DNA of 64,000 nucleotides from Rhododendron vialii. Lineage: Eukaryota; Streptophyta; Magnoliopsida; Ericales; Ericaceae. Within the stretch, counting starts at the first letter, position 1. Each line of letters starts with the position of its first letter. The notes beneath the pieces were generated by a model. It ran no database searches. It had not been told where the DNA came from and was given only the letters and a program-made list of their open reading frames with translations. The stretch lies in assembly GCF_030253575.1 (NCBI RefSeq), contig NC_080561.1, positions 38,487,564-38,551,563 on the forward strand, given 5' to 3'. Shown here one piece after another: positions 3,823 through 42,804 of the stretch. The position numbers were made by a program, and so were the translations under genes.

Positions 3823-5415
3823 TTAGGAGATCAATTGGACCCAGCTAGCGACACTCGGCACGCCTTCGATAACCACAAACATCATATAATACCCTGGTGG
3901 AGCCACCATCCCATTGGGCGGCGCCATACACCCAATCCTGAGCTGTTTATTACCTTTCGAAATTACATTGGTGACCAACTTTACCAATCTCTGCCCCTGC
4001 GAAAACGAATGCGTAGAGAAAGGCGCACTTGCAATATTCACCTCCACTATCTTCCCCAATAATGGCACCGTTACGAGCAACTCGAAATTCTTCCCGTACC
4101 ACACCGTCTCTGGCGGCTCCACCACCATCGGCCTGAAATACGCCTTGTCCAAATACTCCGGCGAAAAGGCCTCGATTCTCAGCTCTGTGGGGAAAGGCTG
4201 AACCCACGTGTATGCCCAATGCGTGTTACTTCCAGCGAGCAAAATTCTCCCGTCGGGCAATAAATTTGCGGTCGAGTGGTACAATCTAGGGATTGTAGTG
4301 GGATTTAGGGTCGTAAAGCGGGAGCCCAAAAGTTGATTAGGTTGGTATAGAACCGGGTTCAAAGCTGGGTCAGTTGCCAATCCGAACCCTTGCGACCCTG
4401 CTTGAGCCCCGCTGATGATTAATATGTCTCCTGTTGGTAGCATCACCATTTCCCCCATGATTCGAACAATTGGCATGGTATCCATCTCCCAATAAGGGTT
4501 GGGATCAGTCGCCACGATCCGCCCGCAGCTCCCTTTGGCCGGTAGATTCACATTATTATTCAGGTAGGCATCGTATTGGGCCCCACCGCAAATGACAATT
4601 GTAGCTGTGGAATAGTCTCCTTCCAATGCAAGCATGGTAGAGGATCCGGCAGACGGGTAGTTACGTGGGCCCCCCTCCAGCTGAGGAAAAGTTTTTAAAA
4701 TCACGTTACTATTGTAATCGTATAGCACGGATTGATTGTTAGCAAATATAAACAGATTTCCTTGAGGGAGAAGGTGAACATATGGATACAGGTTATCCCC
4801 TTGGTTGTCTCCCTCATTGGCGAGGAACGGGAAACTGACTGTGCCGCCAGGTCTCTGTGGATAATACTCTAAGGTGCTGCCGCCGACGCCCCCGACTATT
4901 ATGATAGAACCGTCGGGGAGTATCTGATTCGTGGCATACCAACGCCACTCGAACAAATTGACGTTTTGAAGCTCATACCAATCGCACAAGGAGCCGGGTT
5001 CGCAGGGGGTGAACATTCGGAACTTGTTGGAGCCATCGTTCCAGCCGCCGGATTGGAGGAGGGTGCCATTAGGGAGGAATTGGCCCGAGGAGCACCACGT
5101 GTCGGTTTGGATCATGAGGGGACGGACTGTGTTGGTGTTGAGGTCGAGGAGAACGGAATGGGCGGTGTAATCGGGCTGTGGACCCAGGTCATTTGTGTCG
5201 TTGCGGTATTTGCCGTTTGGGAGCGTTATATTGGACGGGCCGATGTCAGTCCGGTCGAGCAGGACGACGGTGTTGTACCGGGTGACGGCGGCGTGCATGG
5301 CGGCAATGCCAGCGTTTGGCACAATGACTTGCCAGGAGCCCCCCTTGGCATGTGTTCCGATGATTGCGAGGGTGAAGCAGAGGAATTGTAGACACAAGGA
5401 AATCGGAGCGGCCAT
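3823..5415 (-). CDS. GLOX copper-radical oxidase, copy 1 (intact, 530 aa)
   Basis: Intronless secreted oxidase of the glyoxal oxidase/galactose oxidase family. These enzymes oxidise aldehydes or primary alcohols of sugars with O2 and release H2O2 in the apoplast. A hydrophobic signal peptide spans about residues 1-23. The glyoxal-oxidase N-terminal beta-propeller follows, then a C-terminal early-set domain (DUF1929 type). The expected active-site residues are all visible: Cys108 in DTWCSSG (thioether partner), Tyr160 in RWYAT, Tyr379-His380 in RLYHST and His469 in STHSFSQG. The length matches the family and the start is the ATG before the signal peptide. It is the most divergent copy: two cysteines present in every other copy whose N-terminal half is in the window (KCR...YDC region) are Tyr70 and Tyr83 here, and the Cys of NPCL is Ala351. 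Tandem paralogs lie to the right on the same strand. The substrate cannot be told from sequence; galactose-type and glyoxal-type activities are both possible. Confidence 0.93.
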   Translation of the reverse strand: MAAPISLCLQFLCFTLAIIGTHAKGGSWQVIVPNAGIAAMHAAVTRYNTVVLLDRTDIGPSNITLPNGKYRNDTNDLGPQPDYTAHSVLLDLNTNTVRPLMIQTDTWCSSGQFLPNGTLLQSGGWNDGSNKFRMFTPCEPGSLCDWYELQNVNLFEWRWYATNQILPDGSIIIVGGVGGSTLEYYPQRPGGTVSFPFLANEGDNQGDNLYPYVHLLPQGNLFIFANNQSVLYDYNSNVILKTFPQLEGGPRNYPSAGSSTMLALEGDYSTATIVICGGAQYDAYLNNNVNLPAKGSCGRIVATDPNPYWEMDTMPIVRIMGEMVMLPTGDILIISGAQAGSQGFGLATDPALNPVLYQPNQLLGSRFTTLNPTTIPRLYHSTANLLPDGRILLAGSNTHWAYTWVQPFPTELRIEAFSPEYLDKAYFRPMVVEPPETVWYGKNFELLVTVPLLGKIVEVNIASAPFSTHSFSQGQRLVKLVTNVISKGNKQLRIGCMAPPNGMVAPPGYYMMFVVIEGVPSVASWVQLIS

Positions 5416-5474
5416 AGTGCTGAAATTAAGCGAGAGAGTGTTCAGATGTGTGTGTCTACCGCTTTTTGAACTGA

Positions 5475-5482
5475 TATATATA
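5475..5482 (-). promoter_or_regulatory. TATA box of GLOX copy 1
   Basis: TATATATA on the minus strand, 60 bp upstream of the ATG. It is preceded by the block TTGAACTGA-TATATA that recurs upstream of copies 2, 4, 5 and 6, so the core promoter was duplicated with the genes. Confidence 0.6.
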
Positions 5483-6606
5483 GGTAATAAAACCCAACGA
5501 CCGCCAACCCTGTAGTTGGTGGTTGGTGGAGAGAGAGAGAGAGGGGAATGTCAACTGAAATACCCATAATGTTTTAGGATACAGAGAAGAGAGTTGGATT
5601 TCTTGCAGGACTCATAGGGAATGTTTTTGGAACTGAGACTTGTTTACTTGAAAATAGCACGTCGCTTCCACGATCTTATCATTGTCATTCACCAATCAAC
5701 TATTATATTTTTGGAACAGATTGGATGAATGGATTTGGATGAATGGATTGAATGATCCACGATGTCTCCAATATTATTCAATTCACCAACTATATACAAG
5801 TTAATGATTTCTTTCCTATAAGAAATGTACAAGAAGTAGTTGGTTTTTTCTTTACAAAATCGGATGTCCGGACTAGCTACACCGCGACTAATATCAGGGC
5901 TCTGAAGTTTAGGAACAGACAAACTCTCTAGCGGCCTCAAGATATGGAATGTTTGGCCTCCTTGAGAATTGAATATGCGAACTCATATAAGACAAGCACT
6001 TATTTGCTTTCTCGTATCTACTTGGCCAAACTTTTTGGGTTAATGAAAATGGAAGTAGTTGGTAAACATAAAAATATGCACTCCATATATTGTTTAAAAA
6101 ATTTCAAACGAGAAGCCCACTGCAACAAATAATTTTTTTTTTTTTTGGTACATCACTACAACAAATAATGGTTTTAGGGCGAGACATACATTGGTTGGGA
6201 AAGCCAAAATTTTGGTTGCCAATGAGATTTGAGACAATATTTCATATGATAAGGTTTGAAATCACTTTTTGCAACCAATTTGGTCCCTAAAGGCCTTGCA
6301 CCCCAATGCTCCATTTTGTTGCTAAAACCCTCTTTTAACTATTAATAATTGCGGTCTCTAAATGAGTTACTCATTATCAACCAATTTTATAAGAATAAAT
6401 ATCTGGTCCCAAACGGCCTTGCAAATTAGGGTCATGCTTGTATAAATATGTGACAACCCAAAAATAATGAATTCGCTAATGAAAGATGAATTTTCAAAAT
6501 AACAAAAAAATGATGAATTCCCTAATGATGTATTAATAGGTACGTTATGGACCCATTGGATTGCCCTCAATTCAAAGCGTATTGCGTATACACTATTCCT
6601 CTTTTA

Positions 6607-8931: not shown

Positions 8932-9943
8932 ACGGAAGAAGCATATCCATTTATAAAATCCATACGGCATCTACATATTATCACCGGAATATAGATCAAG
9001 CTATATTATACAGTAACAAATTTCCACCCGAATACAATCTTGGAAGGGCACCCATTCTTGAATTATTAACATGTCTTTCGATTAGATAGGTGTTAGATTT
9101 TTTTTTTTTGGAAAAGTCCATGGTACAGGAATCAATCAACTAGCAATGGAACTAAAAGCATTGGACAAGTACCCCATTTCTATCTTTCTGCAAATGCATG
9201 AGGGAAACCAAATCTTAAAAGCAAATGCGTTTTATCACTCTCTCAAAATTTGTTTTTGAAAACATCATAGATGGAACAGAAGGTATAAATGAATTAAAAA
9301 ATGAAAAACCAACATTTGAAAATTAGGAGGTCAATTGGACCCAACGAGCAACACTCGGCACTCCCTGGTTAACAACAAACATCATATAATATCCTGGCGG
9401 TGCCACCATCCCATTGGGCGGCGCCTGAAACACGATCCTGTAGTCTCCATTAACTTGCGACACGACACGAGTGACACCCAACTTTACCAATCTCTGCCCT
9501 TGCGAAAACGAATGGGTAGCGAAAGGCGCACTTGCAAAATTCACCTCCACCTCACAGTCTTCTAATATTGGCGACAACACCGTTACATACACATTGTAAA
9601 GATTCCCGTACTGCACCGTCTTTGGCGTCTTTGTCACCACCGGCCTCAAATTCACGTTGTCTGCCGCCAAATACTCCGGCGAAAACGCCTCGATTCTAAG
9701 CTCCGTCGGAAAATCCCAGTCAAAAGTGTAGTAGTAATGCGTGTTACTTCCGGCAAGCAAAACTCTCCCATCGGGCAATAAATTCGCGGTCGAGTGGTAT
9801 AATCTAGGGATTGAACCGGGGTTTAGCGTCATAAACCGGGATCCCTCAGGTTGGTCAGGTTGGTATAGAACCGGGTTCAAACATGGGTTTGTTGCCAATC
9901 CGTACCCTTGCGACCCCGCTTGAGCCCCGTTGATGATTAATAC

Positions 9944-10507
9944 TGTTGCGGAAACAAAGGACCAAACCAGAACACAAACACATATACAAACACAGAGACA
10001 AAGATTTACGTGGTTCCTCAAAATCGGGTACGTCCACGGGAGAGGGCCGACAAATTTCTATTTATAGAGGAAGAGGAGGATTACAAAATCACTCAAACTC
10101 ACACTCACTCAGAGACTGATACAAATGCATACATATGCTGCTCTCAAACTCTCTCTGATTTTCAGATGCTCTATCATTCTCTTTTTGACAGAGCCTCCTA
10201 GGATGAGCTCGGCTCCCTCCCGAAGGAGGAGCCCTCACGCTGCTCTACTCTCTCTACACTACCTCACTCTCCTCTCTGGTCTCTCACTCAAGAGAGATAC
10301 AAACCCCAAGCAGAGGACTCCAATTTATAGCCAAAACCTGGAGCCCTATTCATGAGCCACGAGAGGCTCATTTACTGCAATCCCATGCCTGGGATTTTCA
10401 AGATTTAGGCAAATCTTTTGAAGTCTACAAAGGCTGCCAAGGCTGCCATCTTTGACCAATGAGAGAATTGGAGCCACACTTCAGCAGCCCATGTGCTGAT
10501 TTCAACA
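9944..10507 (-). repeat. 3' LTR (element orientation)
   Basis: 564 bp, offset by exactly 2,351 bp from its partner throughout. It contains the minus-strand TATA box CTATAAATAG at 10058-10067. Confidence 0.95.
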
Positions 10508-12294: not shown

Positions 12295-12858
12295 TGTTGC
12301 GGAAACAAAGGACCAAACCAGAACACAAACACATATACAAACACAGAGACAAAGATTTACGTGGTTCCTCAAAATCGGGTACGTCCACGGGAGAGGGCCG
12401 ACAAATTTCTATTTATAGAGGAAGAGGAGGATTACAAAATCACTCAAACTCACACTCACTCAGAGACTGATACAAATGCATACATATGCTGCTCTCAAAC
12501 TCTCTCTGATTTTCAGATGCTCTATCATTCTCTTTTTGACAGAGCCTCCTAGGATGAGCTCGGCTCCCTCCCGAAGGAGGAGCCCTCACGCTGCTCTACT
12601 CTCTCTACACTACCTCACTCTCCTCTCTGGTCTCTCACTCAAGAGAGATACAAACCCCAAGCAGAGGACTCCAATTTATAGCCAAAACCTGGAGCCCTAT
12701 TCATGAGCCACGAGAGGCTCATTTACTGCAATCCCATGCCTGGGATTTTCAAGATTTAGGCAAATCTTTTGAAGTCTACAAAGGCTGCCAAGGCTGCCAT
12801 CTTTGACCAATGAGAGAATTGGAGCCACACTTCAGCAGCCCATGTGCTGATTTCAACA
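12295..12858 (-). repeat. 5' LTR (element orientation)
   Basis: 564 bp. The minus-strand TATA box CTATAAATAG at 12409-12418 lies about 440 bp into the LTR, leaving roughly 110 bp for R-U5. The adjacent PBS places this as the 5' LTR. Confidence 0.95.
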
Positions 12859-13859
12859 AATACGTCTCCTGTTGGTAGCATTACCATGTCCCCCATTATC
12901 CGAACTAACGGCATTTCCTCCATCTCCCAAACTGGGTTGGGATCCGTCGCCACAATCCGCCCGCAACTCCCCTTGGCTGTACTATTCACACTCTGATTAT
13001 TAAAGGCGTCGTACTGGGCCCCACCACAAATGATGATCGTGGCCGTGGAATAATTCCCTTCCAATGCTAGCATAGCTGAGGATCCTGCAGACGGATAACT
13101 ACGTGGCCCCCCCTCCAACTGAGGAAAATCTAGTACAATAGTATTATTAACATAATCGTATAACACAGATTGATTGTTAGCAAATATAAACAGATTTCCT
13201 TGAGGGAGAAGGTGAACGTATGGATACATATTATCCCCCTCGTTGTCTCCTGCATTGGCAAGGAATGGAAAATTGATTGCGCCGCCAGGTTTCGGGGGGT
13301 AATACTCCACGCTGCTGATGCCAATGCCCCCGACTATTATGATAGAACCGTCGGGAAGTATCTGGTTGGTAGCGTACCATCGCCCTTGGTACAGCGACGT
13401 GGTGTTCGGAAGCTCTTCCCAATCGCAAGCGGAAGTGTTTATGCAGGGGGTGAATGTTCGGAACTTGGTGTTGCCGTCGTTCCAGCCGCCGGAATGGAGT
13501 AGGGTGCCGTCAGGGAGGAAATGGCCCGAGGAGCACCAAGTGTCGGTGAGGATCATGAGGGGACGGATTGTGTTGGTTTCGAGGTCGAGGAGAGCGGAGT
13601 GGGCATAGCAATCGGTCGTTAAAGCCAGGTCGTTTGGGTCGATGCGGCATACGCCGTTTGGGAGGGATAAATTGGACGCGCCGATGTCAGTCCGGTCGAT
13701 AAGGACCACGGTGTTCCACCGGGTGACCGCGGTGTGCATAGAGGCAATGCCGGCGTTCTGCACCAGGAGTTCCCACGTGCCCGGGGGCTGGGCACGCGTT
13801 CGGATGACTGTGAAGGCGAAGCAGAGCAATTGTAGACAGAAGAAAATGGGAGCGGCCAT

Positions 13860-13930
13860 AGTGAAAAGCGAGTGAGTGTTCACTGTTCAGTTTTGTGTGT
13901 CTGCCGTTATTTGAACTGAGATATATATGT

Positions 13931-15055: not shown

Positions 15056-15064
15056 AATTAACAA

Positions 15065-15150
15065 TAAAAAATTGGCCTAGGGTCCACTATAGCCTACTTC
15101 TAACCCATTAGGTCCACTGATCAAATTTGTAACCCACTAAGTCCACTAAT
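15065..15150 (+). repeat. MULE left terminal inverted repeat
   Basis: 86 bp, pairing with 25205-25290 without gaps. Best-conserved stretches are GTCCACTATAGC and ACCCACTAAGTCCACTAAT. The outermost 18 bases are diverged. Immediately outside is AATTAACAA. Confidence 0.88.
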
Positions 15151-15719
15151 ATATATTTGATAAGGCATAAAGTCCATTACATTTTAAAAGGGAAATAATG
15201 ACTTACAAATTTACCCTCCAATTGAAATCTTTTCTGTTTACCCCATTATCTTACCTTATGTTTGAAATCACTCACGCAAAGATCTCGGGGAATAACGGTT
15301 ACGCTGAATAGAGCGACAGGGAGAAAGAGGAGTCTCGTGAAAATTGATTGATCTCGCATAATCTTTCTCCGGTGATCGTCTGTCGTCTCCCTGTATTGAT
15401 CCAAGCAGTATCGCCTCCCTCCATATCGGGTATCTCTCTCACTCTCTCTCTCTATCTCTATCGTATCTCTCTGTTTATGTTGTAGGCACTATCTCTCTCT
15501 TGGGTATCTTTGTCATTCTCTATGTGGTCTCTGTCTCTCTCTATTTCTCTCGTCTCTATCTGTCGTCTCTCTCTCAGTCTCTGTATCTATATACAACGTT
15601 ATATAATTATATGTAAGTATAACAAAGTTTTACTTATATAACGTTATATAACTTTCTATATTATCCTTTCCAGATATTATGCATATAACGTTAGTGTTCT
15701 TATATAACGTTTTTGAAAC

Positions 15720-15900
15720 TGATATAACGTTATTGGTATTATATAACGTTATATCACATTGTATATAGAGTTACGAATTACATATGACATACGGAAAACG
15801 TTTTTGCAACTTATATAACGTTATTGGTATTATATAACGTTATATCACATTGTACATAGAGTTACGAATTACATATGACATACGGAAATATATGACCATA
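15720..15900 (+). repeat. Tandem duplication rich in ATAACGTTAT palindromes
   Basis: Two adjacent units of roughly 85-90 bp. Each has TATAACGTTATTGGTATT, a second ATATAACGTTATAT and a GTTACGAATTACATATGACA segment. A third, diverged copy lies beyond the transposase at 17675-17785, so the motif cluster brackets that gene. Confidence 0.8.
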
Positions 15901-15987
15901 TATGTTTGAAACTTTGTTCTCTTTTTGATAGATAACATTATTTATCGGTTTTTCTTTTTGTTGTGTATTGTTACGTGTGCAGTTGTT

Positions 15988-17477
15988 ATGGATTCAACAG
16001 TCATGTTTATTTGTAAGTATGTGTTGGAGATTATGAAGGTTCATTCGATAGGCTTCGGTGGTACGTTGAAGCTGCAAGGGCTACGAATCCGGGTAGCGTA
16101 TTGAGGCTAGAATCTGATCCTGTAACCAAAGAGTTTTCACGGCTATTTGTGTCGTTTGATGCTTGTATCAGGGGTTTCAATTACTGTCGGCCTTTTCTGT
16201 GTCTTGATGCCACCCATTTGAAAGGTAGATTCAAAGGAACACTCCTTGCTGCAACAGGGAAAGATGCAAATCAATGTAAGTTTGTTGTCGTTGTTTATGT
16301 TATGTCCTTATATATTATATTTCATTTGTAGATTTTTTAATATATAACATTATATGTTCTATTATGTGAAAGAGGTTCGCATATAACGTTATACGTTTAT
16401 CATTCATGTGCAGGTTTATTCCCTATAGCTTATGCAATTTGTGACGCTGAAAATGATCTTAATTGGACTTGGTTTCTTGGCCTTTTGAGGAGTACATTGT
16501 CCACTCGTCCTGTTACCTTTATTACTGATCGTAACGCAGGTCTTGTCAACAACATTCCTGTTATGTTTCCCGGTTGTCATCATGCATACTGTCTTTATCA
16601 CCTACAGTTTAACTTGAAGGATCACTTTCCTGGTCGGTTTAGAAAAGGTTTTCGGAACAGGCTCGTAGAATTGTTCAACAAATGTGCATATGCTTCATCG
16701 GTGTCGGTTTACAAAGCTGCGGAGGAAGATTTTTACCAATTTGGTGGGGATAAAGCTAGGACCTTTATTGCGAGTGTCCCTAAAGAGCATTGGAGTAACG
16801 CGTATTTTAAAGGTCAACGGTACGGTGAGATGAGCTCTAGTGCTGTGGAGTCGTTTAACAATTGGATTCTTAAAGCTCGTGAAATGCCTGTTTTTTATTT
16901 AGTTGATGAACTTCGTCGCAAAATTATGAAGCAAATGGCAGATAGGAGAGTAAAGTCGATGAAATGGAATTCAGTTATTTGTCCGAATATGGATAAGAAG
17001 TTAGCTCGATTTATCAAGAAAGGAAGGTCGTGGAGGATTATTATGTCAAAGGGTGGTTTGTACGAGGTGCGTTGTCTTCCCCCTAAGGTAGTGTCTGTTG
17101 AGGAAAGGACGTGCTCTTGTGGTAAATGGCAGTCTACCGGTTTCATTTGTAGGCATGCTGCAACGGTTATTATAAAAGCTTGCGGAGGGGAAGGAACTTT
17201 GGTGGACCACATGGATCCGTTATACCTTGTTGATGCGTATCGTCGTTCATATGAAGAACCCATATATTCAGTTGTAGAGAGTGACATTCCTGATTTTACA
17301 AATGGAGGTGAGCGAGTTATAAACCCTCCACGGAACAGGAGGCCAGCAGGTAGGCCCAAAGTAAAACGCATTCGTTCAAGGGGTGAAGATTCATATACTA
17401 GGCCAAATAAATGTGGGAGGTGTCACAAGGCTTCAAAGCACAACCGAAGAACATGCAAAGAGCCAAGCGATATATGA
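15988..17477 (+). pseudogene. MULE transposase, N-terminal DNA-binding part lost
   Basis: The conserved catalytic half is open over two exons, 16023-16275 and 16414-17477, joined across a GTAAG...TGCAG intron with the frame kept (DANQ|CLFPIAYA). The DDE residues are visible: Asp in LDATHLKG, Asp in ITDRNAG and Glu in AVESFNNW. CHHAYCLYH precedes the last. A SWIM zinc finger (CSCG...CRH) and a C-terminal zinc knuckle (CGRCHK...RRTC) follow. An ATG at 15988 starts MDSTVMFICKY, a plausible true N-terminus, but it is out of frame with the downstream part, which joins it at about 16020. The MuDR-type N-terminal domain expected between them is absent. I infer an internal deletion removing it. The alternative is an unrecognised microexon arrangement. 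Confidence 0.82.
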
Positions 17478-17639
17478 GGCAAGGATTCAAATATGAGAAT
17501 AAAGGAGAGATTATGATGAAGACTGGAATAAAGTTGGAGGGTTTTAGTTTTTTTTTTTTTCCTTATTCATGTTTAAATATTGAAGTTGTTTCGTTTGGAT
17601 TATGGATAAATAAATAGTTTAATATTTTGTATACATGAG

Positions 17640-18551
17640 TTTTGCACAGATTGTTCCCATGTTCAGGTACACTGTATATAACGTTATTATAGTTATATAA
17701 CGTTATATAACATTATATATGTCTGCTTTTTAAAGTTACGTATGTCATACTCAATTATATGACCATATATGTTCGTAATGTTGTCCAGTTTTTTGATAAC
17801 TAAATCATTACCAAGGTTTAAAGGGATGTTTTGCACATGAAAAGTTATGTTCCTGATTTTTCATTGCAAAACTTGTGGTTGGTCTTTGTCAGTTGTATGG
17901 AGATATATCCTTTTTTTGGAAAAACCAGCTTGCAAAATGAGATTACACATTCTGTTAATAGCATTACAGCATGATTTGGACAGCATAACAGCAGAACTTT
18001 ACACATTCCGTTTTATACATTCTGTTACAAAAGCCTTTGGAACTTCAGATGTGTTTAAATTGGACAGCATAACAGAATCAAAACAGATGCATAACAGGCA
18101 GAAAAACAGCATGAACCTAGTTTCAGAATACAAACAAACTGCAGCAGATGAGATAAGACACCATCTTTATTTTAACAAAGTATCCAAGACATAATACTAG
18201 TAATAAACAGGAGCATTAACAGATTAGTAATAAACAGGGGCATTAGCAGCTGTAACCCTTCTCAATTATATTAAACTGTACCAAAACATCATGAACAGCT
18301 GTACAAACATAACTGTACTAACATAACTACAGCAGCAGCATTATTACAGCCCAAAAAAGATTGTTTGGAATGACCTATATAAGATAGGATTTTGTTTACA
18401 AGTCAGTGGTCAAGTCAAACTTCGTTTGGAATGAACCATTCAAGAGTTTAGTACCATGTAAGTCCAATCTTTCTTATATCTTTACACAAAACTTAAAACC
18501 ACAATTGTCCTGAGCACACCATCATCATCTCACTGTCCATCTCTTCATTGG
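17640..18551. other. Convergent intergenic stretch between transposase and ULP gene
   Basis: Non-coding. It holds the second ATAACGTTAT cluster (17675-17785). About 17990-18370 is a segment also present, diverged, inside the ULP intron at about 19640-19980. Shared landmarks are AACCCTTCTCAATTA and ACAGCAGCAGCA. Confidence 0.6.
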
Positions 18552-21500
18552 TCATTGCGATCCCTTCCCCATCCGTCTGGCTTCCCATTTCTTTATTGTC
18601 CAGCTTCTACCTTCATCGTTCAAAAATCGAGAGACTAAACTAGCTCTGAACTGATCAATTTCAGACTTCGGCAATGTTTTTGGGATTGGCTCAAGGTGCG
18701 CCACTAGTTCCATGAGCATGCATACGATAACCCCACAATCAACCCTGCATAGTTTCGAGGCAAATAAATATGATAAGTTTATTTTCAGTTCTTGACAAAC
18801 TGCTGTATGTAGGATTTTTGAAGCTTACGATGTATTTAGTTGTTGTGGAGCATTTTTTGGTGAGCATATTGGAGCATCGAACTTCTGGTCTTCAAATAGA
18901 ACTTCTGTATCGGTACTTTGGTTTTTCAGCTCAGCATGCCTGGCATTCATGTAATTCTCCACGTATTTTTTCTACATTTGGAAAGCACAACATTAGTGGT
19001 GTTGATATTGTTCGTGATTTATAGTATGAGTATTTGTGTATATGGTATTGGTAAGTGTACCACAACGGTAGCGTCTTTCAGAATTGGATCACTGCCGTCT
19101 CTCTTCTTCAACGAATTGTAGTGCATCCAGTTCTTTTTCCTAACATCAAATAACAGGATGGTCCAATGGTACGGTGTAAATCTTAGCGGTTTGTTCCCGC
19201 TGCCATTCATAAGGAATACCAAGTACCGATAGTATTTAGACCCATGTTGCTGGACGTTCTCAAACACACGATGAAGCTTTACGTCTAGCAGAACTGTTCT
19301 CATGTCACTTTTGTCGTTGTGCAGTATAGTCTGATGCATTGGAAAATCTTATAAGGATAGTATGTAGATAATCATGCATGTAATTGCAAAAAAAACATAT
19401 AGCAATGACTTACTTGAGTTAATATGATAAACAATGCAAATATCATGTAATTCAATAGTACCATGTGAGGTTGTATTATATAACGTTATAAAACGTTATA
19501 TAATATTACATTCATAACCCAAGTTTAAAGATATGCTTCGTAAATTAAAAGTTATGGATCTTAACTCAGTTGTTTTTCTAACGTTAATGTACTTTATGAT
19601 TAAGTAAGATTATGAAGTTCAACTGAGTTAAGATGTATAAAACATCAGAACAGCTGTGTGCAAATGAAAACATAACATTACATCTGATGCACACAACAGA
19701 ACAGCAGAAGCATCTTAATTCCAGCAACGTTTATATAACCATATATACGAATGAAATCAGGAGACATTCTGGTACATAGCTGTACGAAATATCAGATTCC
19801 AGTCGTATAAGACACCATTTGTACTTATAAACTGTAGCCAATACAGAAATAAACAGGATCAGTAGCAGTTGCAACCCTTCTCAATTAGATTTTGGTACCA
19901 AAATTTCTGCTACAACTGGAATAACAGAATTGGACTAACAGAACTACAGCAGCAGCAGAATTACAGACAAATATATTAGACAGATAATCATATATAACCT
20001 TAAATAAGCAGGCATTTACGAAGTAAAGTATATGTTGCTTACCCAGATTGTACATGGGAAATATGCAACGTTACCAATGTTAAGGTTATCTTTATCCAGT
20101 TGGATTGTTAACATACGCGCGAGACCGTCGATCATCTGCATTTGTTTGCATATTTAAGAACAGAATCGACCAATACGCAGTTTTGATATGTATTTGCAGT
20201 ATGATATAAGATATGATTTCCATACCCAGTTTGAGACGTCCCCTCCTTGCAAGAGTTTCATTATGTCTTCCAGAGGTACAACTTCTCTCATCACATCATT
20301 GGTCCAGACAGTACAACTGTTATCAAACATGTGTACCAAAAAACTGTAAGAAAAAATGTACTTGAGATCATGTGATGCGCAAAAAAATTTGTACCAAAAA
20401 AGATTCGTCTCATAGATCATGTTGAAAACAGCAGCAAATATCATGTTATGCAAGCTTTACATATGAGGTTAGATTAGTTTAGTATTTTTACTTACGTCAT
20501 ATCAGCGTCAGAACAATCAACAATTTGTTACAATAGGTTCGCATCGGTATTCGGGAGCAAGTGCATCAATGGTGCTTCACGTGGATTCCACTTTTGTTTC
20601 GGTATATTCTTTGTCCCCTTTTTCAATTCAACGTATACATAATCATCTGATCGCTTCTCCACTCTGGTTAAAGTTTTTTTGACTCCTCTGGTCAAAGATG
20701 ATGATTTCACTTTTATTTTGTTTCTTCCCCTTTTTCCTTTAGGTGTGTTGCATTCTAGTATACTTGTGTATGCCTCTACTGTTGTACTGTCCACTTTTGC
20801 ATCTGGCACCATTATTTTCTCTGGTCCACCCTCATCCTGGACAATATCAAACCCCCCCTCTTCTTCTTCTTCTTCTTCTTCTTCTTCTTCTTCGTCTTCA
20901 TCTTCTTCTTCTTCTTCTTCTTCTTCTTCTTCTTCTTCGTCTTCTTCTTCCACTTTTGTAGTCTGTTTTCAAAAAACAGTCATCACTTATAATTGTTAAA
21001 TTACTGCCTACATATATAACCATACATATATAACCTAATATCTATGAGGTACCTGGTACATTTGTGTAACATTGTGTGTCACAAAATCATCAATGATATC
21101 TCCGGCGACTTCCAGTTTTTCTTCAACAATGTCTTTATCTATGATCATGCCACCAATTTCTGTCTGTAAAGTAATGTTTACGTGTTCAAGGTGGTCTTTG
21201 TCAAACTGTGCGGAAATGCCTTCGAATCCTAAACCAGCTGTTGTGTTTTGTGGATGATTCGCAATCCTTCTCCTGAGTTCAGAAATTGTGGAATTTTTGT
21301 CCTCATTTTCCTTCTGAAGAACAGAAATTATCCGATCCTTTTCCAGATTTTCTTCTGTCAACTTTCTGATTATAGCTCGGAGGTTTACCACTTCATCCTG
21401 CTCATCATCCGTATCCTCATCACTTGTATCCTCCACGACCTCGTCCTCCGACTTGTTAACTGCTGTCTTCAACTTACTGGCCTTCACATCAGCATCGTGT

Positions 21501-23903
21501 TCGGGTAATTGGGAAAACCGATACAACTCTTCCTCCTTGTCGTATGGCTGCAACTCTGAGGATAATACCTTCAAAAAAATACCATAAACAATGATGTTTA
21601 TAAATCACATGCAGCAACAAAACTGTTTTATAATTGATCATCTATGTTCCTTAACAAAACACATAACTCTATCTAGTTTTTACCAATTGCGGATCAAGAG
21701 AGTCCAAGTTGTTTGTACGTAATTCCTTGGTTAGGTCACCAAGCCTCCACTTTATGAACCTTGGTATGATTTGTGAATCTCCTTGTTTAATTATAGACAC
21801 ATGCTCACATAGCCAATACTGTTTTCAAAATAAAGCACAAATTAGTTTAAAACTTAACAACAAAATGGAAAGACTATGGAAGTTAAAAAGTGGGATGTTA
21901 TTGTTACCATAAGCCCCATTACGCATCCTCCTACTTTTGTTGGTAAGGAAGAAGCCCTTTTGTTTAGTTCTTGGATGACATCTTCGGTGATGAATGTTGC
22001 CCAATCGTATGTGGTGCTATTATCCAAATATTCCACAAACTCCAAGTAACCCCAACTAACTCTCGCTTGTGTGTTTGCAAAAAATAATGTCCCTATTAAC
22101 AAAAGGCATAGGACACGTGCCAAGTCCTTCGCATCCTGCAAAGTGTTGCCTTTAACAGCCTTGGTAAAGAATTCCCTTAGTACCGGAATTGTTAATATCC
22201 TTTGGCCTTTGGGACCTGGGCAAAGTCGATCAGCAAAGTCTGATTTCGGTACCCTTGGAGTTGGATTTAGTACAATCCTTGTAGGACCGGATTGTATTCC
22301 AAATATGAGTGTTACCTCTTTCGACGTTATTCTCACAGACTTGCCACCCAATTTAAACCTCCCACTCGTCCCCTCATACTGCTTTACCAACTTTAAAACG
22401 TCGGTATCACTCTTCCGTACGTAGGCCTCATCCAGATTTGCTTCGATAATACCCAACAGAAGTTCAGCAAATGGTGTCTTCTTGATCTCCTGAACTTGAA
22501 GTTGTGTGAATTGCCCAGTAGGAATACTCCTTATAAGTTTTACCACAGTGTTTAAAGTTGACCTACATAAAATACAGAAATTGTTACAGAATATCACATG
22601 CAACCATATATAATTCAAATTATGACATCATATATTTCAAGTTAGATTAAATATAACATTATATCAAAGTTAATATGCAACAAATAACAATTGTATGGTG
22701 TTGCAAATACAATGAAATTGATACAGATTAACATATATAACCATATATATGGCAGGTTACAACAATACATATAACCTTCCAATATTATGTACATCATATA
22801 TAACATTATATCATTTTTAATATGCAACATTCAACAATCATATGATGGTGCAATATGATTAAAATGAAACATAAAATCATATATAACCATATATATTACA
22901 GGTTTTAAACATATAAATCCTTGCACATTCACCGTATAAAATATATGACGTTATATCATTACTTTCATATCCATATTATCATGTAATTTTACCTGTACTG
23001 AATGGCCCTCTTGTGTTCCACTTTTTCCTGCTTTGGACGGCTTGACGTGCTCTTCATTCCTTTTCTCTTCTGCACCTTTTTTTCCTTTTCAATTTCTTCT
23101 TCATCTTCCTTGTCTTCATCCCATTCCTCTTCTTCTTGACCCCCCTTTCCCTTTTTGTTAACATTTGGTTTTCTATTTAAACTTCCACTCTCGGAGACTT
23201 GATACTTTGGTTTTCGTCTAAACCCTTTGTCCTCCCTTTCTTCTTTGTCCTTACTCCTTTTCATTTTCTTCAATGCTTCAGCAGACCGTGTGACTCTCTT
23301 TGTTGGGGTGTTCAGATCTATAACTTCTACGTCTCCACTATTTGGCCTTTTCCTCTTTCTCTCATAAACCATTTTAGTGTCTGGCTTCTTTCCATGGTGT
23401 TTCCTATTGATATGAATTGGGGTTGGGGAGGAACTTTGGACAGTTGCTTCTACGGCATCTTCTTTTGTTCTTTTTCGTTTCCTTGGGGACACAATCTTCC
23501 GGTGGGATGGGGAGGAAGACTTTACTACCTCAGTCTTATGTGCAATGTCTTCATTAATTATGGTCTGTTTCCTTGCGGACACATTCTTCCGGTGGGAGGG
23601 GGAGGAAGACTTTACTACCTCAGACTTACGTGCACTGTCTTCAATATTTATGACAGCAGGGTCTGCTGTCCGTTTCCTTGCGGACACCTTTTTCCGGGGG
23701 GAGGGGGAGGGGGAGGAAGACTTGACAACCTCGGATTTTTGTTTACTTTTTTCTATAGTTATGACAGCAGGGTCTGATGTCCGTTTCCTTGGTGTTTTCT
23801 TCTGCCTGATCTCTTTTGGGGGGTCAATCATTGCTAACGGACGGGCTTCTGTAGCGTACGCCGCAGGTACCAACTCTTTACCTGTTCTTTTTGGTTTAGT
23901 CAT
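18552..23903 (-). CDS. ULP1-like (C48) cysteine peptidase carried by the MULE, 10 coding exons, 1154 aa
   Basis: Hand-spliced exons: 22993-23903, 21908-22562, 21684-21818, 21053-21568, 20532-20962, 20226-20343, 20043-20135, 19061-19330, 18829-18971 and 18552-18744. All introns are GT-AG. Phases agree and no stop interrupts the 3,465 bp. Residues 38-145 are basic Ser/Pro repeats (EVVKSSSPSHRK). Exons 2-3 resemble the DUF1985 region of ULP-bearing transposon proteins (FGIQSGP, PRFIKW). Exon 4 is a coiled coil. Exon 5 begins with a long Glu/Asp tract. The C-terminal peptidase fold shows His1008 in PYHWTILLFD, Asn1025 in MHYNSL where ULP1 has Asp, Gln1087 in PQQLN and Cys1094 in VDCGVIVC. Related enzymes cleave SUMO; whether this one is active is unknown. 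The start is the first in-frame ATG after a 5' UTR intron. A frame runs on upstream across that intron but has only GTG/TTG starts. Confidence 0.88.
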
Positions 23904-24970
23904 TGCTGCACATACAATAAGTAAATTAAATCCATGGGAACATACATCAGACCCTGATATTACAAATTATGTTCTAACATGGACCGGTGAAAATCAAATG
24001 TAAATCATAGACGTAAAAAACAAAAACTGATAGTCAGTCAAGTTCAAATTTATATATCCGTCAGTCAAGGAAAAAAACTGGACTGATAACCTAACCAGAT
24101 ATAACCATAAGCATTAGCATATCACTATATAACCATATTTCAAAATTATGCCACACAGAACATCTATTCACACACAGTTTATATAACCATATATTCCATC
24201 AATGATATCCCTAACTTAAATCAACAACACCCTTACTGATCAAAAAATGATATAACCACATTTACTTTCAATCAAAACCCTAATTGAACTTAACCAACAC
24301 TTTACTGATCAGAACCATAACTGAGCCAATGATTCATGTAACCATTTAATCAAGAATAAACATACTTGTAAACCAACAATCAAACAACAAACACTTATAT
24401 AACCATATATGCCATATATACCATATATGAAATACATAACTTAATTCAATCATACCCTAACGGATCAAATATTGATATAACCACATTTACTTTCAATCAA
24501 AACCCTATCTTAACTTAACCATCACTTTACCGTTCAGAACCCTAAAGGATTCATATAACCATATATACAGGAATAAACATACCTGTAAACCAATATTCAA
24601 ACAACCACCCATTCATATAACCATATATTCAAAGACAAACATACCTGGTAATCGATTTCGATGTAGGATTTGACGGTTTTTGATAAACGAAAGCGAACAA
24701 CTGCGAAGAGCGGGACGGCGTCCGACTGGAACGAAGGAGAACAACGGCGTAGAACAGCTACTACCACCCGAATACAATGGGCGAAGTATGGCGTCTACCA
24801 CCCTACCAGAATGGGCGACTGAAACGCGTCGTAGGACGGCGACGAACGGAGAAGAACGGCCGTCTGAAATTATGGAGAAGGCGAGACCGTTGGTGAACGA
24901 AGAACGCCGACGACGAAGGAGGCCGACGACAAAATGTCAGGCGATCAATTTCTTCTCACGAACCGTCTAG
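23904..24970 (-). promoter_or_regulatory. 5' UTR exon, leader intron and promoter side of the ULP gene
   Basis: A donor TTACCAG|GTATGT at 24645/24644 and an acceptor GTGCAG|CAATG at 23906/23905 define a 739-bp leader intron full of ATATAACCATAT repeats. The leader exon would start at or above about 24900. This is inferred from splice signals only. Confidence 0.55.
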
Positions 24971-25015
24971 GGCTTTTCTCGTTTTTCACGAACTGGGGTT
25001 CGTTCTGAGAAATGA

Positions 25016-25056
25016 GGGGGGGAAGGGGGGGAAAGGGGGGGAAGGGGGGGAGTGGG
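25016..25056 (+). promoter_or_regulatory. G-run cluster upstream of the ULP gene
   Basis: Four runs of about seven G separated by AA or AAA, then AGTGGGG. This is a strong G-quadruplex-forming pattern on the plus strand, just inside the right TIR and upstream of the inferred ULP transcription start. Confidence 0.7.
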
Positions 25057-25204
25057 GATTCCATTTGTACTGAAATGTGAGAGATTTTCGGGGTTCGAAA
25101 ATTTCAAATAAATATTTTTGAAATTGATGGAAAAACGGGGCAATCAACTTTTAAAGAACAGGGGTATTTTAGACTAAGCAGTGTTATTATATCATTAATA
25201 ATAG

Positions 25205-25290
25205 ATTAGTGGACTTAGTGGGTTTTGAAATTTAGAAGTGGATTTAGTGGGTTTGAAATATGCTATAGTGGACTTATGAAAAATTCTCCC
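25205..25290 (-). repeat. MULE right terminal inverted repeat
   Basis: Reads GGGAGAATTTTTC on the minus strand from 25290 inward and pairs with the left repeat. The AATTAACAA duplication follows directly at 25291-25299. Confidence 0.88.
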
Positions 25291-25299
25291 AATTAACAA

Positions 25300-28922: not shown

Positions 28923-30530
28923 TTAGGAGGTCAATTGGACCCAACTAGCAACACTCGGCACTCCCTGGTTAACCACAAACATCATATAATACCCTGGTGG
29001 CGCCACTATTCCGTTGGGTGGCGCCGTACACGCAATCATGTACTGTCCATTAACGTTCGGCACGACACTGGTGACAACCAGCTTCACCAACCTCTGCCCC
29101 TGCGAAAATGAATGCGTATTGTAAGGCGCACTTGCAAAATTCACCTCGACTATCCCCGTCAACGGTGTCGGCACCGTTACAGATACATTGTAAAGTTGTC
29201 CGTACTTTACCGTCGTTGGCGTGTTCACTACTGCCGGCCTCAAATTTGCATTGTTTGCTGTCAAATACTCAGGCGAAAACGCCTCGATTCTCAGCTCCGT
29301 TGGGAAATCCACGCCGAATGTGTAGTAGTAATGTGTGTTACTTCCAGCAAGCAAAACTCTCCCGTCGGGCAATAAATTCGCAGTCGAATGGTACAACCTG
29401 GGGATTGAACTGGGGGTTAATGTCATAAACCGGGATCCCTCAGGTTGGTCATGTTGGTATAGAACCGGGTTCAAACACGGGTTCGTCGCCAATCCATACC
29501 CTTGCGACCCCGCTTGAGCCCCGTTGATGATTAATACGTCACCTGTTGGTAGCATCACCATGTCTCCCATGATTCGAACAAATGGCATTTCCTCCATCTC
29601 CCAAATGGGGTTGGGATCAGTCGCCACGATCCGCCCGCAACTCCCCTGAGCCGGAGTATTTACACTTTGATTATTGTAGGCGCCGTATTGAGCCCCACCG
29701 CAAATGACAATCGTGGCCGTGGAATAATTACTTTCCAATGCCAGCATGGCAGAGGATCCTGCAGATGGATAGTTACGTGGACCCCCCTCTAGTATAGGAA
29801 ATTTTTTTACAATCACGTTATTATCGTAATCATATAGCACAGATTGATTGTTAGCAAATATAAAAAGATTTCCTTGAGGCAGAAGGTGAACATATGGATA
29901 AAGGTTATCCGTCTGGTTGTCTCTTGACTCGACGAGGAACTGGAAATCGACTGCGCCGCTAGATCTCGGCGGGAAATACTCCACGCTGCTAACGCTGATT
30001 CCCCCGATTATTATGATAGAACCATCGGGGAGTATCTGATTAGTGGCGTACCAACGACCTTGGGACAACTCGACATTTTGAAGCTCAACCCAATCGCAGA
30101 AGGAAGCGGCTTCGCAGGGGGTGAACATTCGGAACTTCCTGTTGCCGTCGTCATTGCCGCCCGATTGGAGGAGGGTGCCATTAGGGAGGAATTGGCCCGA
30201 TGAGCACCACGTGTCGGTGAGGATCTCAAGGGGACGGATTCCGTTGGTGTTGAGGTCGAGGACGGCGGAGTGGGCAGAGCAATCGTGCTTTAAGTCCTCT
30301 TCGAATGGGTCGTCGCGGCATTCACCATTCGGGAGCGACAGATTGGACAGGCCGATGTTAGCACGGTCCAGGAGGACGACGGTGTTGAACGGGGTCACGG
30401 CGGTGTGCATGGAGGCAATGCCGGCGTTGGGGACCAGGAGCTCCCACGTGCCCGGGAGGTCGGCACTGGTTTGGATGATCGCGAAGGCGAAGCAGAGGAA
30501 TTGTAAACCGAAGAAAATGGGTGCGGCCAT
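28923..30530 (-). CDS. GLOX copper-radical oxidase, copy 3 (intact, 535 aa)
   Basis: Complete intronless member of the array. The signal peptide is about residues 1-23 (MAAPIFFGLQ...). Active-site residues are Cys109 (DTWCSSG), Tyr161 (GRWYAT), Tyr380-His381 (RLYHST) and His473 (NTHSFSQG). The N-terminal cysteine pair missing from copy 1 is present (ECRDD, KHDC), as is NPCL. The open frame runs 103 codons further upstream, but only to a TTG, through a (GA)n tract encoding Ser-Leu repeats. The ATG at 30530 aligns with every paralog and is chosen. Closest in the window is the split copy 2: both share the MAAPIFF start and a paralogous upstream block (30766-30920 versus 14280-14430). No clear TATA box like that of the other copies is seen; the (GA)n tract occupies that position. 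Secreted; probable apoplastic aldehyde/sugar oxidase producing H2O2. Confidence 0.93.
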   Translation of the reverse strand: MAAPIFFGLQFLCFAFAIIQTSADLPGTWELLVPNAGIASMHTAVTPFNTVVLLDRANIGLSNLSLPNGECRDDPFEEDLKHDCSAHSAVLDLNTNGIRPLEILTDTWCSSGQFLPNGTLLQSGGNDDGNRKFRMFTPCEAASFCDWVELQNVELSQGRWYATNQILPDGSIIIIGGISVSSVEYFPPRSSGAVDFQFLVESRDNQTDNLYPYVHLLPQGNLFIFANNQSVLYDYDNNVIVKKFPILEGGPRNYPSAGSSAMLALESNYSTATIVICGGAQYGAYNNQSVNTPAQGSCGRIVATDPNPIWEMEEMPFVRIMGDMVMLPTGDVLIINGAQAGSQGYGLATNPCLNPVLYQHDQPEGSRFMTLTPSSIPRLYHSTANLLPDGRVLLAGSNTHYYYTFGVDFPTELRIEAFSPEYLTANNANLRPAVVNTPTTVKYGQLYNVSVTVPTPLTGIVEVNFASAPYNTHSFSQGQRLVKLVVTSVVPNVNGQYMIACTAPPNGIVAPPGYYMMFVVNQGVPSVASWVQLTS

Positions 30531-30574
30531 AGTGTAAGCGAGAGTGTTCACTGCTCGGTTGTGTGTGTGTCTAC

Positions 30575-30578
<4 letters not shown>

Positions 30579-30609
<31 letters not shown>
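30579..30609. repeat. (GA)n microsatellite at the GLOX copy 3 promoter
   Basis: About 15 units, 50-80 bp upstream of the ATG. Shorter GA tracts sit at the same place in copies 2, 4, 5 and 6. Confidence 0.9.
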
Positions 30610-30611
<2 letters not shown>

Positions 30612-33072
30612 ATTTCTTACGTTAGAGGGAGAAGAGTTTGGGTTTCTAGCTGAACTTAACTGGGATCGATGATGGTGAAATGATAGATTCCCACGGCTCT
30701 TTGCCCACCTACCAACTTGTTGACTGACTGTCCTCTGCTTTGTTTCTAGTGAATGATTCTCGGGAATAATACTGTTGTCATCCGCTAAGAAGTTCAGAGA
30801 AGATACGAATTTCCAGTTGATGATTGTCGGTGAAGTCAAAGCCCAGCCTTGAGTAGTTCAATTTTTGTCAAGGCCACTGCGCTGTCGCGGAAGCTGCGCG
30901 CGAAGTGTAGAGGTAGTTCTCCTGAAATTATAATTAGTACTCCTACCGAAAATCACCACCTTACGGGTCATTTGCCGATCAGATTAACTTTGGGTAGATA
31001 TAGCATGTGAAATGATATTTTAAAAAAAGAAGGATATATATAAAGGGGGAATATTATATCCGTTGTCTATATCCGGGTGGTAAACACCGTATATAAGACC
31101 TTCGAATATAATATTCGGGGTGATAACATATCTGCTCCTATATCTCATTGACAAACGAGTCGGTATGATATCTTTGAAAGTTTTACATGGTACGCTGAAT
31201 GTGCCCTTTTTGGACAACCTCCTGTCCTCCTCAACTACTCGGACAGCTAAGAGATCTGTTCAAGTAACATGCGGACTAATTGAAGTAATGAATGTTCACA
31301 AAAATAATACTCCGAGTACTACAAATATTGAAGTGATGAACTTCCCAATATGGTATGGATTATTGCTCTTGTTCCTCTTTCACTTTAGGTGGTTTGTATA
31401 CAGGTACAGCCAATCTATTGTTTATTAACGTAAATAAACATGAATCACTTCAAGTAACTATAAAATTGTATGTCTTTCGTAGTGAACTATCTTTGCGGGA
31501 CGGAGGGTGGGGTGGTGTTGAAGTGATGATGGTGGTGGTGATGATATATATATGCTGGTGGTAGAGTGGGAGAATTTCAGATATTTTAAATTTATTACGT
31601 AACCAAACTCAAGGTTTGTTGTACATAGAAATTGCGATAGAATCCATTTATAACAAATTTGAAATCCCTTTTTTTGTCAATATCGTCGATCAGTATCTTC
31701 TTTTTATTCAGTCGGTCACCCCTAGTTAATAAACATGGTGTAGAGAAACTATACTAGCTAACAAATTAAGAGCAAATAAGTAATCTGAACCCATAACTAG
31801 ACTTTGAATTAACTAAATACTAACATTAGACAGGTAACAAGTACGAAGAACTGGAGCAGACAAGAGTTTCCCTTCGTTAATTGGACAGCTACATATTTAG
31901 CCCCTGATGAGCTGGGGGAACATTTTTAATGGGTGGTTTGTTACTAGGGCCTTTATGAAAAGGCCAAGCCTGCATATATAGTCTTTGGGCTTTGGGCCGA
32001 ACTTGAAAATGTTGGTTTCCTTTTTTCTGTAGCATATTTTCTGAATTAATTCCATATCCTGATACAGCCAACAGGCATGTAAGGCTGTAACCGGCACTTT
32101 CTTACCTCTTTCTCATGAAAGGTGAGGGTTTGATTCGCACCAAAATCACAAGTGTTTGGTGTGATGGTTAGTGCCCTTTGGACTTGCCTCACCCGTATGT
32201 CGCTTAGCAGTATCCCATCCCCATTCCCTTGGGAGTAGGCTAGACATCTATCGAGTGAAAATATAAATGTAAATATATCTTGTGATACACATGGACCTAC
32301 AAGGCCTACTCAGTGAATAAGACTTCTCTGTTATCTCAGCTGGACTGTCCTTTGTAGTTCAAGTGATTTGGGTGACTGGGTCTAGTTAGGTCTCACCTCC
32401 AACTGATTTGCTCGGAGTCGATTAACTAGGTTCCTTCGTACGTGAAGTAGAACATATGTACAAAAGCTTATCTTGATCGGCATTAATGAGCTAGATCCTA
32501 AGCTAACACATTAGTTCTTTGTGTGCATAAAATTGGCTTCTCTGCTTCAAGTTATAATGAGACACCGAAAATTCGCACCATATTGCTGTTTGCAAGAGCT
32601 GTTGAGTGTGCAGTGACTACGACCATTTGAAGCCACGATATATCTAGTATCCAGGAAATAGCGATGCAGGACGAATCACTTGAGCAAATTCGGTGAGGTA
32701 GCGTATTCGGAATAAGGACAATGGGTGAAACGAGCCTTGATTTGCACAATCATTTCTATATTCTGTTTATGTTTACCTTCAATTTCCAATTCCTGATTTG
32801 ATATATTCTCTAGTTTCAGTTTCTAAAGTGTGTATCTGTTTTTATTATATATATTTTTTGAAATTAATAAAACAGGTCAAAATTTTACTTATCCATTCTG
32901 ACCAACAAATGTGCGCGAAGAAACAACGTACAAGGTCAAGAAAAAAAAAATGTAAGCAACATACACAAGTGCACACTCACAAATACACTCTTTTACGTAG
33001 TATGAAGTGTTATTCAATGGAGCGCCCACCCTGTACGCACTCTGTCTCAAATCCAATCATAATGAAGGACAT

Positions 33073-42735: not shown

Positions 42736-42804
42736 GGTGAAAGGGAGAGAGAGAGAGAGAGAGTATTCAGCTATGTGTGTCATCTGCCGTTATTTGAACT
42801 GAGA

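Follow-up and report, generated by a model that had tools for sequence, protein, structure and literature searches.

A TIR-bearing MULE family of Rhododendron vialii with an Ulp1-type gene and family-specific noncoding words, a probable VANC/KIU-type anti-silencing transposon

We observed that a 64,000-nucleotide stretch of Rhododendron vialii DNA (NC_080561.1, positions 38,487,564 to 38,551,563; hereafter the window) contains a single, worn copy of a plant DNA transposon that was mobile until recently, a MULE in which a short word, ATATAAC, is arrayed in the noncoding parts. These noncoding arrays, which the original prediction had not mentioned, were the best pointer to function. We consider the element to be probably a VANC/KIU-type anti-silencing MULE of MuDR type, with two genes coding for a transposase and a VANC/KIU-type protein. 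Its features are collected in Table 1.

Table 1. Features of the element, in window coordinates
Feature	Position	Strand	Remark
Whole element (MULE)	15065-25290		worn copy of a plant DNA transposon
Target-site duplication, left copy	15056-15064	.	AATTAACAA
Target-site duplication, right copy	25291-25299	.	AATTAACAA
Left TIR	15065-15150	+	86 bp
Right TIR	25205-25290	-	86 bp
Motif cluster	15598-15846	+	12 ATATAAC/GTTATAT sites, upstream of transposase
Transposase remnant	16020-17477	+	MULE DDE core, SWIM zinc finger
Junction of 796-bp deletion	16026-16032	.	GGAGATT
Motif cluster	17676-17711	+	5 sites, downstream of transposase
ULP gene, 10 exons	18552-23903	-	splice sites compared over 13 copies
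ULP exons 1-5	22993-23903, 21908-22562, 21684-21818, 21053-21568, 20496-20962	-	
ULP exons 6-10	20226-20343, 20043-20135, 19061-19330, 18829-18971, 18552-18744	-	
C48 protease part, exons 6-10	18552-20343	-	
Protease residues			exon 8 holds His and, at the catalytic Asp position, Asn; exon 10 holds Cys
Nonsense codon TAA, ULP exon 5	20528-20530	-	
DUF1985/PMD-like exon	21908-22562	-	proposed motif-reading domain
Motif cluster	22651-22956	+	6 sites, ULP intron 1
Motif cluster	24099-24621	+	8 sites, mostly ATATAACC, upstream of ULP gene

The original prediction had described an element with 86-bp gap-free TIRs and a perfect 9-bp target duplication, and all of this was borne out. The duplication was exact on both sides, and the two TIRs were 72% identical without a gap; the two 200-bp element ends had a best ungapped score of 46, and none of 60 pairs of 200-bp stretches drawn at random from the window scored above 16. 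A module recurred about every 30 bp in the left TIR (TCCACT at 19, 49 and 78) and at the same places in the right TIR. When the window flanks were joined without the element and searched in the genome, 11 of the 32 rows (two of the 32 being the window's own flanks) aligned over the junction at 65-89% identity, revealing uninterrupted related sites elsewhere.

Both TIRs were repeated in the genome, and neither this search nor the TIR score above refuted the original prediction. The left TIR gave 289 first-look candidates, of which 40 were scored, all with at least 89% identity, and the right TIR gave 628, again with 40 scored and all with at least 88% identity. Pairing of the TIRs yielded 12 other copies: 11 measured 10.6-12.8 kb, and the twelfth, at 32.9 kb, contains a large insert. 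Taking copy boundaries as given by the TIR matches, without re-fitting, the 9-bp target duplication was 9/9 in 8 of the 11 uninterrupted copies (8/9, 7/9 and 6/9 in the remaining three), 5/9 in the 32.9-kb copy, and 4/9, 8/9 and 4/9 in three copies of about 3 kb. Several full-length copies thus had the exact duplication together with the same gene order, supporting an amplified, recently mobile family of ULP-bearing MULEs. The B-type copies showed 88-92% identity to the DUF1985-like exon of the window.

The transposase part contained MULE and SWIM domains, in keeping with the predicted DDE core, and it was rightly called a remnant. The N-terminal half was lost with 796 bp that are gone at a GGAGATT microhomology, and at this place all 11 uninterrupted sister copies had about 790 bp or more extra. 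The remnant has one intron (approximately 16276-16413) that holds two motif sites. In one sister copy a 791-aa frame contained DBD_Tnp_Mut, MULE and SWIM, as expected of a MULE-type transposase.

The ULP gene was convergent to the transposase and coded for a C48 peptidase, as predicted, but the claim that it is intact, with an open 10-exon frame, could not be upheld. At the conserved splice sites, exon 5 of the window copy contains a TAA codon that is CAA in 12 of 12 sister copies. The conserved exon-5 donor, GTAAGT, has its GT in 11 of 13 copies, and its use puts the TAA in frame. The open model depends on another GT, created by the same C-to-T change that created the TAA; since this GT is missing in 11 of the 13 copies, the open-frame model was dropped, although RNA of the window copy may be spliced there. 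The ULP frame was broken in 12 of the 13 copies, one sister (C2:4649138-4660151) being fully open. Neither gene of the window copy is functional in form, and the copy would need service in trans.

The ULP protein (a DUF1985/PMD-like domain, a coiled coil, an acidic tract and an Ulp1-type C48 protease) is most likely of the VANC/KIU type. The domain list originally given was fair; the suggestion that it sets apart a distinct subfamily was not sustained, since the DUF1985-like exon had 150 scored matches in this genome (from 646 candidates, at 100% down to about 27% identity, some being pieces of one gene). The Pfam DUF1985 domain was not matched in the window exon and was found in 4 of 10 aligned relatives; PMD was likewise matched in 4 of 10, and was below the cut-off in the sister protein. 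Both domains have been under constraint. Among variants common to at least two of the 13 copies, the ratio of observed to expected N/S was 0.27 for the DUF1985-like part (p 0.0004) and 0.53 for the protease part (p 0.04), and dN/dS was 0.19 between the window DUF1985-like exon and its relative of 76% identity. Private changes were likewise under expectation (0.65-0.78), so that the neutral guide is imperfect. The fold predicted for the DUF1985-like exon had a mean pLDDT of 83.2 in the best model (58-83 across five). Foldseek against the PDB returned 33 rows with a best E of 0.96 and TM-scores of at most 0.21, and PDB sequence searches with the exon and with the alignment gave no match; this speaks neither for nor against DNA binding.

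The C48 domain, which is expected for the KIU subset, scored 33.4 bits (cut-off 20.7, E 5.2e-8). Among the relatives, His and Asn were seen in six (one, family G, by a weak match only) and Cys in four, and Asn occupied the catalytic Asp position in every relative where this position was visible. SENP1 and SENP2, which matched weakly (best E 0.011), differ from the ULP protein in not having Asn at this position. The Asn found throughout makes protease activity a direct question.

We further examined the distribution of ATATAAC. The word occurred 39 times in the element, with none in the exons (47% of its length), and 7 times in the other 53.8 kb of the window. It lay upstream of both genes, near the ends, in introns and between the genes, and the TIRs had none. 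Markov controls of order 1, 2 and 3 (100 runs each) gave means of 2.8, 6.8 and 12.8 and maxima of 8, 14 and 25. All 12 near-full-length copies (the window copy counted) had 35-44 sites, and two of the copies of about 3 kb had 22 and 23, despite having little in common with the window element (none or end pieces only in the copy comparison). Genome-wide, ATATAACGTTATATAAC gave 143 matches and the reversed control none. Among the matches listed, 64 of 100 had a listed family TIR or DUF1985 match no more than 12 kb away, as compared to 0.4% of random points (the size of contig C4 being an assumed value); for the 17-bp word, 28 of 55 loci were away from any listed family match. The best single spacing period of the sites was 9.0, not 10.5, although 1 of 300 jittered sets equalled their power at 9.5-11 bp.

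AT richness as the cause of the enrichment was unsupported by the Markov controls, by the reversed pattern and by seven control segments, of which five came from the window (two of these sharing 1.3 kb) and two lay within the insert carried by the 32.9-kb copy. One segment of that insert, ctl6, had CGGATAG 13 times, with a score of 66 as against 65 for the window family's word. As enrichment alone is therefore no proof, we also relied on dispersal, exon avoidance and relatives fetched later.

When we examined six related families, one (76% identity) kept ATATAAC, four diverged families each had a different dispersed word, and one had none, so that five differing words were found across six of the seven families of this ULP gene. 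ATATAAC occurred at 16 per 10 kb in the 76% relative, where 4 of 16 sites were inside coding matches and no 10-bp spacing was seen (151 of 300 jittered sets were equally good). The words of the diverged families were ACAGATA (52 per 10 kb), GAGATAA (31), AACACTG (25) and TATGAGA (63). Outside its own family each occurred at 0-5 per 10 kb, apart from ACAGATA, which reached 7 in family D. The family words occupied 7-14 of 20 bins, each 500 bp long, and in the four diverged families 2/52, 1/64 (six-base word), 0/25 and 0/63 fell in coding DNA by tblastn marking. Family D (L044, 48% identity) was counted as being without a dispersed word because its enriched words were confined to one local tandem array (about 9300-9950). 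The best spacing periods were 10.6 bp in D2, 10.3 bp in E (six-base word) and 10.4 bp in G, whose 21-bp spacing may reflect nothing more than a tandem repeat. The seven-base word of E gave no spacing signal (68 of 300 jittered sets), and F had 3-4 pairs only. Separately fetched relatives (L050-L052, provisionally placed in G, E and D2 by similar DUF1985-like match scores) had, as predicted, 24 TATGAGA in 1.7 kb, 15 GAGATA in 2.2 kb and 15 ACAGATA in 2.1 kb; in each relative the four remaining words were present 0-3 times apiece.

These observations suggest how the intact form of the family might work. The ULP protein would most likely bind the ATATAAC word in the element's own noncoding parts, and, once bound, would remove or block silencing marks at the arrays. 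Cognate copies, including non-autonomous ones that keep ATATAAC, would stay expressed and mobile, and this word-specific anti-silencing would leave the rest of the genome alone. As for the protease part, one guess is that it removes SUMO-like marks where the protein sits.

We also evaluated other explanations. The ULP gene could be an old captured host-type gene (transduplication) with no role for the element, the arrays being AT-rich minisatellites. The broken frames, the tandem look of some arrays and the strong enrichment in ctl6 fit this, but the gene is present in diverged families, with conserved domains and with constraint on common variants, and the words are family-specific, dispersed, exon-avoiding and found again in later-fetched relatives, which makes it unlikely. 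About as improbable, in our view, is that the words have nothing to do with the ULP protein and are instead bound by the transposase or by a host transcription factor that drives expression of the element. The clusters upstream of the two genes and close to the element's ends fit this; against it, the words are also in introns and between the two genes, the TIRs, where a MULE transposase would be expected to bind, hold no ATATAAC, and the words change together with the ULP protein (relatedness having been gauged for this protein alone). The least likely explanation, to which we give very little credence, is a general SUMO protease acting in trans and weakening silencing without reading words. 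The C48 domain and the conserved His, Asn and Cys are consistent with it, but it leaves the family-specific words unexplained, the Asn sets the protein apart from SENP1 and SENP2, and KIU proteins are held, in passages of PMC6117577, to be unlikely to act on SUMO.

Returning to the anti-silencing reading, we tentatively offer a wider proposal, which is rather doubtful as a whole: that at least five distinct sequence-specific anti-silencing systems coexist in this genome, in TIR-keeping MULEs. Each would pair a DUF1985/PMD-like reader with a helically phased word of its own, 7-9 bp long, and a Ulp1-type protease having His-Asn-Cys instead of His-Asp-Cys would be recruited to that word, where it would strip SUMO-like marks off silencing chromatin. 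If it is true, the protein/word pairs would form a natural recognition code for DUF1985-type domains. Five such pairs can be read from the sequence of one genome, and provide material for decoding DUF1985-type DNA reading.

Sequence-specific anti-silencing has been worked out in the VANDALs of Arabidopsis, and the same anatomy is now seen in another plant genome. Sasaki et al. 2022 (EMBO J e110070) reportedly described diversified VANC systems of eudicots, with Ulp1-bearing VANC-type genes having their own motifs, and are also said to have reported helical spacing of the motifs. Their systems may already cover relatives of the window family. Diversified eudicot systems with Ulp1-bearing VANC-type genes and own motifs are described in PMC13317346. 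The VANC proteins of Arabidopsis bind to short words that lie in noncoding tandem repeats of the VANDAL family they belong to and cause methylation to be lost at those repeats, and some VANC genes carry Ulp1 (PMC5735166, PMC10398659, PMC13317346). VANDAL21/VANC21 and VANDAL6/VANC6 resemble the window family in being MULEs that combine a transposase gene with a DUF1985-type second gene, and in having own-family noncoding short words that differ between related families; their words, YAGTATTAY and AGTTGTCC/AC, are other than ATATAAC, their TIRs are degenerate or absent, and their binding and demethylation have been demonstrated, whereas the window family is known from sequence alone (PMC5735166, PMC10398659). 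The Kaonashi (KI) MULEs of Arabidopsis, with KIU genes, also have an Ulp1-type domain, in reverse orientation to the transposase gene, but are non-TIR, and are set apart here by description (PMC6117577, PMC2528002, PMC13317346). The presence of TIRs, each conserved between copies, in the window element was counted against the anti-silencing reading, since VANDALs and Kaonashi are non-TIR. Some elements of a Brassicaceae VANDAL group have TIRs (PMC6446971). TIR loss and VANC genes have been suggested to go together (PMC10398659), and the window family, in which clear TIRs accompany the word arrays, should be weighed against this. The two arms are only 72% alike, which calls for caution over the word clear. 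Compared by description, the ULP-bearing TIR-MULEs of grapevine and melon are similar in their TIRs, their 9-bp duplications and a ULP gene downstream of the transposase in either orientation; unlike for the window element, motif arrays go unmentioned in the relevant passages of PMC2528002. Together, the kind of system is one known from Arabidopsis, and the window family is a new addition to it, with clear TIRs.

The MULE was borne out at its boundaries: the original prediction of 86-bp gap-free TIRs and a perfect 9-bp target-site duplication held, and the two TIRs (72% identity) gave a pair score of 46 against 16 or less for random pairs (n=60). A module recurs about every 30 bp inside both TIRs, at identical offsets in the two arms (TCCACT at 19, 49 and 78; ACCCAYTA at 39 and 68). 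When the flanks were joined without the element, the alignment spanned the junction elsewhere in 11 of 32 rows (65-89% identity), so the flanks are part of an older repeat with related sites lacking the element. The MULE lies within an apparent tandem cluster of glyoxal oxidase/galactose-oxidase-like genes.

Features of the window (window coordinates except in the first row)
Feature	Position	Length	Strand	Basis
Window	G000:C5:38487564-38551563
MULE element	15065-25290	10,226 bp
TIR arms	15065-15150, 25205-25290	86 bp each
DUF1985-like exon	21908-22562
Glyoxal oxidase N-terminal + galactose-oxidase-like frames (four)	3829-5550, 28929-30857, 36962-38596, 41137-42789		minus	domain matches
Similar frames	9326-10057, 12759-13886, 46389-47111, 63333-63998			by eye

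We searched the genome (13 contigs, 532.6 Mb) with each TIR, scoring 40 of 289 left and 40 of 628 right candidates. The prediction had hung on the TIRs recurring elsewhere; pairing them gave at least 12 further copies, of which 11 measure 10.6-12.8 kb and one 32.9 kb, besides three about 3 kb long. The closest sister copy (C2:4649138-4660151) showed 98.75% identity over 10,207 aligned bases with a single 796-bp gap. Two short loci, L032 (C2:11669558-11673237) and L033 (C1:4499636-4502709), have the family TIRs and little else in common with the window element, and carry 22 and 23 ATATAAC sites, respectively.

The transposase of the window copy is indeed a remnant, without its N-terminal half, the loss falling between two GGAGATT words. 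In the closest sister, the reading frame is open on both sides of an intron (408 and 378 aa); in a further copy, DBD_Tnp_Mut, MULE and SWIM all lie in one 791-aa frame. In sister copies at 41.99 Mb on C2 and 22.98 Mb on C8, a single frame of 791-793 aa (L019:850-3222) spans the entire transposase, running through the apparent intron of other copies.

Comparison of 13 copies gave a ULP gene of 10 exons. With the conserved exon-5 donor, it was fully open only in the closest sister (1/13; 1160 aa). The open frame first read in the window copy was not confirmed, as it depends on a GT created by the nonsense change itself; the conserved donor gives one stop, at a codon that is CAA in 12/12 sisters. 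Both genes of the window copy are therefore most likely defective, the transposase for want of its N-terminal half and the ULP gene because of the stop codon. We conclude that the ULP-MULE family is real and recently amplified, and that the window holds a worn copy.

We estimated selection on the ULP gene from shared variants (in at least 2 of the 13 copies), taking the spectrum of private changes as the N/S expectation; this guide is not perfectly neutral, since private changes themselves stood at 0.65-0.78. Relative to that expectation, N/S of the shared variants was 0.27 for the DUF1985-like part, 0.53 for the protease, 0.73 for the N-terminal part and 1.2 for the coil/acidic part. Exon 2 of the window against the 76% relative gave a dN/dS of 0.19.

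Six relatives (C, D, D2, E, F and G; identities 76, 48, 47, 39, 30 and 27%) were sampled, 10 kb each around the DUF1985-like exon. Ten such exons from seven families aligned with 19 invariant columns; Pfam matched DUF1985 in four and PMD (plant mobile domain) in four, and neither in the window's own exon. The predicted fold of this exon had fair confidence (pLDDT 83) and no match among solved structures. In the sister ULP protein, Pfam recognised peptidase C48 (5.2e-8) and, below cut-off, a weak match to the plant mobile domain. In weak alignments with SENP2/SENP1 (best E 0.011), the His and Cys of the window ULP fall on the catalytic His and Cys, with Asn at the catalytic Asp position. The His-to-Asn stretch was present in C, D, D2, E and F, and weakly in G (E 0.12); C, D, D2 and E also have DCG around the Cys, which the 10 kb fetched for F and for G did not reveal.

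The element contains 31 plus-strand and 8 minus-strand ATATAAC sites, none in exons, and the remaining 53.8 kb of the window contains 7. All 12 near-full-length copies carried 35-44. Spacing in the window element had a best period of 9.0, and its power at 9.5-11 was reached by 1/300 jittered sets; pooled distances from 12 family copies, which are not independent, peaked at 10, 19, 29 and 39 bp. Genome-wide, ATATAACGTTATATAAC occurred 143 times versus 0 for the reversed control. Sixty-four of 100 places listed (27/55 loci) had a listed TIR or A/B/C-type DUF1985 match no more than 12 kb away, as did 0.4% of random points. The remaining 28 loci may belong to the family outside the matches listed, or be something else.

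ATATAAC was shared by relative C (16 sites, 4 in marked coding DNA), with no period in its spacing (151/300 jittered sets equally good). Four relatives had other words, with few or no sites in marked coding DNA: ACAGATA in D2 (2/52), GAGATAA in E (0/31; GAGATA 1/64), AACACTG in F (0/25) and TATGAGA in G (0/63). Best periods were 10.3 for the six-base E word and 10.4 for the G word (each 0/300), and 10.6 for D2 (13/300); the seven-base E word gave 68/300, and F had too few pairs for a period. In separately fetched later relatives, the G word occurred 24 times in 1.7 kb, GAGATA 15 times in 2.2 kb and the D2 word 15 times in 2.1 kb, with each other word only 0-3 times. No dispersed word was found in D within 10 kb around its DUF1985-like exon. 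A local tandem array lies upstream of that exon (L044:9300-9950; word steps 57, 108 and 165 bp).

Our literature search found no published description of the window family, the most relevant paper lying outside its reach. A DUF1985/Ulp1-type second gene, word arrays restricted to noncoding DNA, diverged families with other words, and short copies retaining the word are jointly the anatomy of the VANC/KIU anti-silencing systems, as excerpts of PMC5735166, PMC10398659 and PMC13317346 give it; from this combination we propose that the family works likewise. We do not file the element as VANDAL or Kaonashi, since both are described as non-TIR whereas it has TIRs. TIRs alone are not new, since grapevine and melon have TIR-MULEs with ULP genes (excerpts of PMC2528002) and some elements of a Brassicaceae VANDAL group have TIRs (excerpts of PMC6446971); the point to stress is TIRs combined with such word arrays. 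The system is of a known kind, has a new word, and comes with several partner families in one genome.
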